From a virus: a stretch of DNA of 43,690 nucleotides. The translations under genes were made by a program, and so were the position numbers. Position 1 is the first letter of the stretch. The number at the start of each line of letters is the position of its first letter. The notes below the pieces were generated by a model. It searched no databases. It was not told the DNA's origin and saw only the letters and a list, made by a program, of their open reading frames with translations. Below are positions 728 through 1,244 of the stretch, piece by piece. The stretch lies in IMG/VR virus record IMGVR_UViG_3300043353_000042, positions 64,001 to 107,690 of that record; one strand, 5' to 3'.

Positions 728-827
728 ATAGGCGGAAGAAACTTCGCCACTGCGCACGTGCAGGCGCAACGCGATGACGACCGGCGCACGGTAGTTTTGG
801 CTCGACCCAAAGAAAGGGGCGACGGCC

Positions 828-1244
828 ATGGGCGCAACGGTGTTTTCGCTGAACGAGTTCGTCAGGCTTGAGACGCAGGTGTGAGGCGAGTGCGGGGTGA
901 CCTTCGCCATGCCCGCGACGATGCGAGAAGCGCGCTTGCGCGATCGCAAATCGTTCTACTGCCCCAATGGGCATCAGCGGGTCTTCTGTGGCGAGACAGA
1001 GGCGACCAGGCTTCGGAGGCAGCTCGACGACGCACGCCGGGCAGCGGAGCGAGCTGAAGAGTTCCGACGGGCAGCGCTGAAGGAGGCCGAGCACAACGCA
1101 ATCGAGTGGCGCAAGAGCAAGACTCGCTTGCGAAACCTTCGCGAGCGGGTGAAGAACGGGGTGTGCCCGTGCTGCAAGCGATCGTTCGTTCAGCTGGTGA
1201 GACACATGGCGACGCAACATCCGGAGTACACACCATGCGATTGA
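828..1244 (+). CDS. Phage zinc-finger protein with in-frame TGA at its first Cys position
   Basis: The reading frame starts at ATG 828, with AAAGGGG at 813-819 as ribosome site. It reads 18 codons ending LETQV, meets TGA at 882-884, then continues GECGVTFAMPATM to a stop at 1242-1244 (139 codons). A family of small phage proteins starts with LET..C..CGV.F, then FYCPNGH, then a coiled-coil helix and CPCC...H....H. Here the TGA sits exactly at the first Cys of the C-x-x-C pair, followed by C22, C45, H49, C113, C115, C116, H126 and H131. A GTG at 897 could start a shorter form but has only a weak ribosome site and would lose the first knuckle. Possibilities are a nonsense mutation, a sequencing error, readthrough, or selenocysteine. 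Role in the phage is unknown. Confidence 0.6.

Follow-up and report, generated by a model that had tools for sequence, protein, structure and literature searches.

PHROG 33336 includes gp64 of Gordonia phage Hitter with its relatives and gp17 of the Mycobacterium prophage prophiT46-2. The members share CxxC...CPxGH and CPCC...H...H ligands, and the actinophage copies of the gene adjoin RecT or stand a few genes away from it. The first position of a CxxC motif is also where TGA is found in the bacterial UxxC selenoproteins (thioredoxin-like proteins and others, PMC13188914). The bacterial SECIS criteria given in the same source are a loop of 3-9 nt, a G in the first two loop positions and a distance of 16-37 nt from the UGA.

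The DNA analysed here (the window, 43,690 nucleotides) comprises bases 64001-107690 of a 107,690-base IMG/VR virus record (IMGVR_UViG_3300043353_000042). It carries a gene that is similar to the PHROG 33336 members over the full 138 residues and has the ligands common to them. Whereas all the relatives are uninterrupted at codon 19, this codon is TGA here (Table 1). The frame opened by ATG 828-830 runs for 18 codons to TGA 882-884 and is then open for another 119 codons up to TGA 1242-1244. Codons 1-18 (MGATVFSLNEFVRLETQV) aligned to the start of L002 (MGAATVYSMNEFVTLDAQV), which is the closest relative, and a purine-rich AAAGGGG precedes the ATG. A preliminary description of this DNA had claimed a ribosome site before the ATG, a family-like N-terminus, a TGA at the first Cys of C-x-x-C and an intact remainder of the protein; each of these points was borne out, the TGA coinciding with an invariant Cys of the family. 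This confirmed that TGA 882-884 is a single-letter stop at a predicted zinc-binding Cys of a phage zinc-finger gene.

When the TGA was read as Cys, residues 8-135 matched positions 5-132 of the 136 in the phrog_33336 profile, and the read-through protein matched 22 Gordonia and Mycobacterium phage records at identities not exceeding 42%. Seven of the ligands C19, C22, C45, H49, C113, C116, H126 and H131 are kept, the missing one being C19. The segment 828..1244 is filed as an interrupted copy of the PHROG 33336 gene.

Table 1. Features of the interrupted gene (positions in the window)
Feature	Position	Strand	Basis
Shine-Dalgarno-like AAAGGGG	813..819	+	8 nt before ATG; sequence, similar AAAGGGAAGG upstream of the L002 start
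phrog_33336 gene, interrupted at codon 19	828..1244	+	phrog_33336 E 3.2e-33; 120 distinct relatives; AlphaFold2 model pLDDT 93
In-frame TGA, first Cys of CxxC (residue 19)	882..884	+	TGC (93) or TGT (27) in 120/120 aligned relatives
Downstream GTG-initiated ORF, 115 aa, without CxxC	897..1244	+	ORF list; GAGG 883-886 10 nt upstream
Proposed GGCGAG/TTCGCC stem	885..908	+	No fit to the bacterial SECIS model (PMC13188914); not the predicted fold

The protein was used for one scan of viral_contigs and alignments for two more; the relatives came from these, from one scan of genome_contigs and from two annotated phage loci. The homologue alignment proposed in the preliminary description gave a uniform answer: at site 19 all 120 distinct aligned relatives had Cys and none had TGA. 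Random stop positions among relatives, which had been named there as counter-evidence, were not seen either, since none of the 120 had a stop inside the gene; three stops that were flagged either precede its start or are its natural end. Three further sequences were gapped at site 19 and are not counted among the 120. One of them, L047, shares its contig with L006; a frameshift has put its sequence upstream of CPNGH out of frame. In L006:560-800 the N-terminal CCSC part lies in a different frame from the CPNGH part, a frameshift that is either real or an assembly error. Damaged or mis-assembled copies of the family thus occur in this collection. Another relative (L096:1390-1510) has the YLCGVLFGLEAGHMAHL stretch tandemly duplicated around the second Cys.

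In an alignment of 30 sequences C19, C22, C45, C113, C116, H126 and H131 were invariant and H49 was nearly always present. The AlphaFold2 model (pTM 0.54; the pLDDT in Table 1 is the mean) has a beta-rich module at the N-terminus, then a helix of about 50 residues and, at the C-terminus, a finger; the gene is accordingly described as coding for an N-terminal zinc ribbon, a long helix and a C-terminal C2H2-like finger. No significant match came out of fold searches, in which small ribosomal chains were the best PDB hits (E 1.1). We infer that the protein has two zinc sites, the first formed by C19, C22, C45 and H49, and Cys19 is predicted to be a structural zinc ligand rather than a redox site. 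Several actinophage relatives were located near RecE/RecT-type recombination genes, which makes a nucleic-acid-binding role plausible.

Over the part downstream of the TGA the gene is 73% identical to its counterpart in L002, which is intact and adjoins the integrase of that phage. Comparison of the two gave dN 0.22 and dS 0.76 overall (dN/dS about 0.3), and a dN/dS of 0.32 after the TGA, indicating that this region was under constraint until recently. Such constraint dates the stop as recent or spurious, two cases that it does not distinguish.

The TGA is very probably the result of a single-base nonsense change, of which there are two versions: an accessory gene of the phage has recently mutated, or the metagenome assembly has a wrong base in its consensus. 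The preliminary description had listed a lost gene and a point change or sequencing error among its options, and these are supported by the universal Cys of the 120 relatives and the intact downstream frame; the nonsense change is further favoured by the lack of a SECIS-like element and of tRNAs (see below). Against it stand the undamaged frame on both sides of the stop and the result of a coding-potential scan, which found no other interrupted gene in the record. This result means that the phage is not generally decayed; the loss of this one gene would need to be very recent, or else the stop an error. The error branch, in which the phage really has a Cys codon, is part of the nonsense change and not an addition to it, and we put it somewhat short of an even chance. 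A singleton stop in an otherwise intact and constrained gene, on an IMG/VR contig without a second copy for comparison and in a record with no other interrupted gene, is what an error would look like, but nothing positive points to one. If the change is real, the course of events could be as follows. Beside the integration site of a temperate tailed phage there is a small zinc-binding gene, and one substitution, present in this single record, would have made an ordinary TGA stop of the codon for the invariant zinc-ligand Cys (codon 19 of 138). Ribosomes starting at ATG 828 would then terminate after 18 residues and the protein would be lost, at most a C-terminal fragment being made via reinitiation at GTG 897. 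We infer that the stop is recent and that it is not recoded in the host.

The exact coincidence of the TGA with a Cys is the pattern of a selenoprotein and speaks against a nonsense change, yet it is expected at about 16% here. With codon 19 taken as TGC, 8 of the 50 one-step nonsense routes in the gene lead from Cys to TGA, and so do 8 of the 15 one-step routes that give TGA. A TGA at a Cys is therefore unremarkable in this Cys-rich gene and the coincidence is weak. As a general caution, Cys-rich genes of metagenomic phage contigs should show singleton Cys to TGA changes at an appreciable rate. Of the 110 called genes of the record 70 end in TGA, more than in any other stop; global recoding of TGA was rejected on this count, in agreement with the earlier statement that TGA is an ordinary stop.

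A real stop might also be tolerated, with reinitiation at GTG 897 providing a C-terminal fragment or low-level UGA readthrough providing some full-length protein, but we consider this improbable. In its favour, GAGG 883-886 is found 10 nt ahead of GTG 897, the first codon of the 115-codon frame; this GTG, however, is an ordinary conserved Val codon, which is GTG also in the stop-free L002, and a reinitiation fragment would be without the C19/C22 half of the zinc site. As for readthrough, the context of the UGA is undistinguished and the phage has no suppressor tRNA. Nothing was found in favour of programmed readthrough, readthrough being one of the options raised in the preliminary description.

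The same description had raised selenocysteine, in which case SelB and tRNA-Sec of the host would decode UGA 882-884 to give a UxxC zinc-ribbon selenoprotein. The TGA does replace the conserved Cys exactly, in a UxxC arrangement and with the downstream frame intact. FmdB is a zinc-ribbon-like family. Since FmdB (UxxU) is among the predicted selenoproteins listed in PMC13188914, a metal-binding context does not in principle disqualify a candidate by itself. The SECIS test suggested earlier was carried out with minimum-energy folds, as a stand-in for the published program, on stretches of 36-60 nt after the TGA. In none of the six fold lengths did a hairpin fit the bacterial model of PMC13188914: the loop obtained was either UGAC, at a distance of 13 nt, or CCU, at 16 nt, and the additional hairpins formed by longer stretches failed as well. 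When 1500 sense codons of this phage were taken at random, 31% passed the same test, thus a pass at TGA 882-884 would have carried little meaning. The local fold was ordinary when compared with shuffles (z -0.8 and -0.45). The pairing of GGCGAG (885-890) with TTCGCC (903-908), pointed out before, can be drawn (6 bp, one of them G-U, with a loop of 12 nt) but is not the predicted minimum-energy fold; because it starts directly after the TGA and has a 12-nt loop, it fails the SECIS model in both loop size and distance. No tRNA was detected in the whole 107.7-kb record by ARAGORN or Rfam, and there was no Rfam match of any kind; a phage-borne tRNA-Sec, which would be helpful for a selenoprotein though not required, was thus not among the findings. 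Selenocysteine was rejected on account of the relatives, in which no further homologue with TGA at the site was found (0/120), the hairpin test and the role of Cys19 as one of four predicted structural zinc ligands outside any redox motif; a fold no better than that of shuffles and the commonness of the nonsense route point the same way. We regard it as very improbable, and its specific form, a phage-encoded selenoprotein in which Sec takes the place of a structural ligand in a zinc ribbon and is decoded by the host via an atypical SECIS, as slightly more improbable still. A phage-encoded selenoprotein at a zinc site would be surprising, and before selenocysteine is considered one would need another homologue with TGA as well as a SECIS element.

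The record encodes a terminase, a portal, a tail sheath and a tape measure, indicating a contractile-tailed phage. Similarity of the terminase was too low to help in host assignment, no closely related phage DNA was found in the phage collection and there was no plasmid match. An integrase is encoded on the minus strand, just to the left of the interrupted gene. Between the two, at about 560-617, is a stretch that looks like the 3' portion of a tRNA (tRNA-Arg with anticodon ACG when judged by eye) and is probably the phage attachment site. It has no exact repeat of at least 20 bases elsewhere in the record, and was matched neither in viral_contigs nor in a set of 392 genomes from a single phylum. 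In L002:4400-4930 the integrase is likewise followed by a tRNA-like 3' fragment, different from that of the window, and then by this gene, so that in both phages it seems to be the first gene past the attachment site. In viral_contigs there were no relatives of the neighbour gene at 1507. A phage gene in L032:12641-14386 is similar to the family of the CobT subunit of cobaltochelatase (phrog_17276, E 3e-20), although another family scores better.

General decay of the phage was rejected after inspection of the 13 stop-cut candidates of the coding-potential scan: the six examined looked like ordinary neighbours, mostly with their own starts, and the remaining ones follow the ends of called genes. 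An SbcD/SbcC overlap suspected of being a frameshift proved not to be one, the two proteins matching separate families, and the TGA at record position 56278, another candidate, was a normal gene boundary.

Like the bacterial UxxC selenoproteins (PMC13188914), this gene has TGA at the first CxxC position, but it differs from them in having no SECIS-like hairpin, no TGA-bearing relative and a structural zinc site in place of a redox motif. At the level of the consensus sequence, no difference was found from ordinary nonsense-disrupted phage accessory genes, in which, as here, a single substitution interrupts a gene near the attachment site and leaves the remainder intact.
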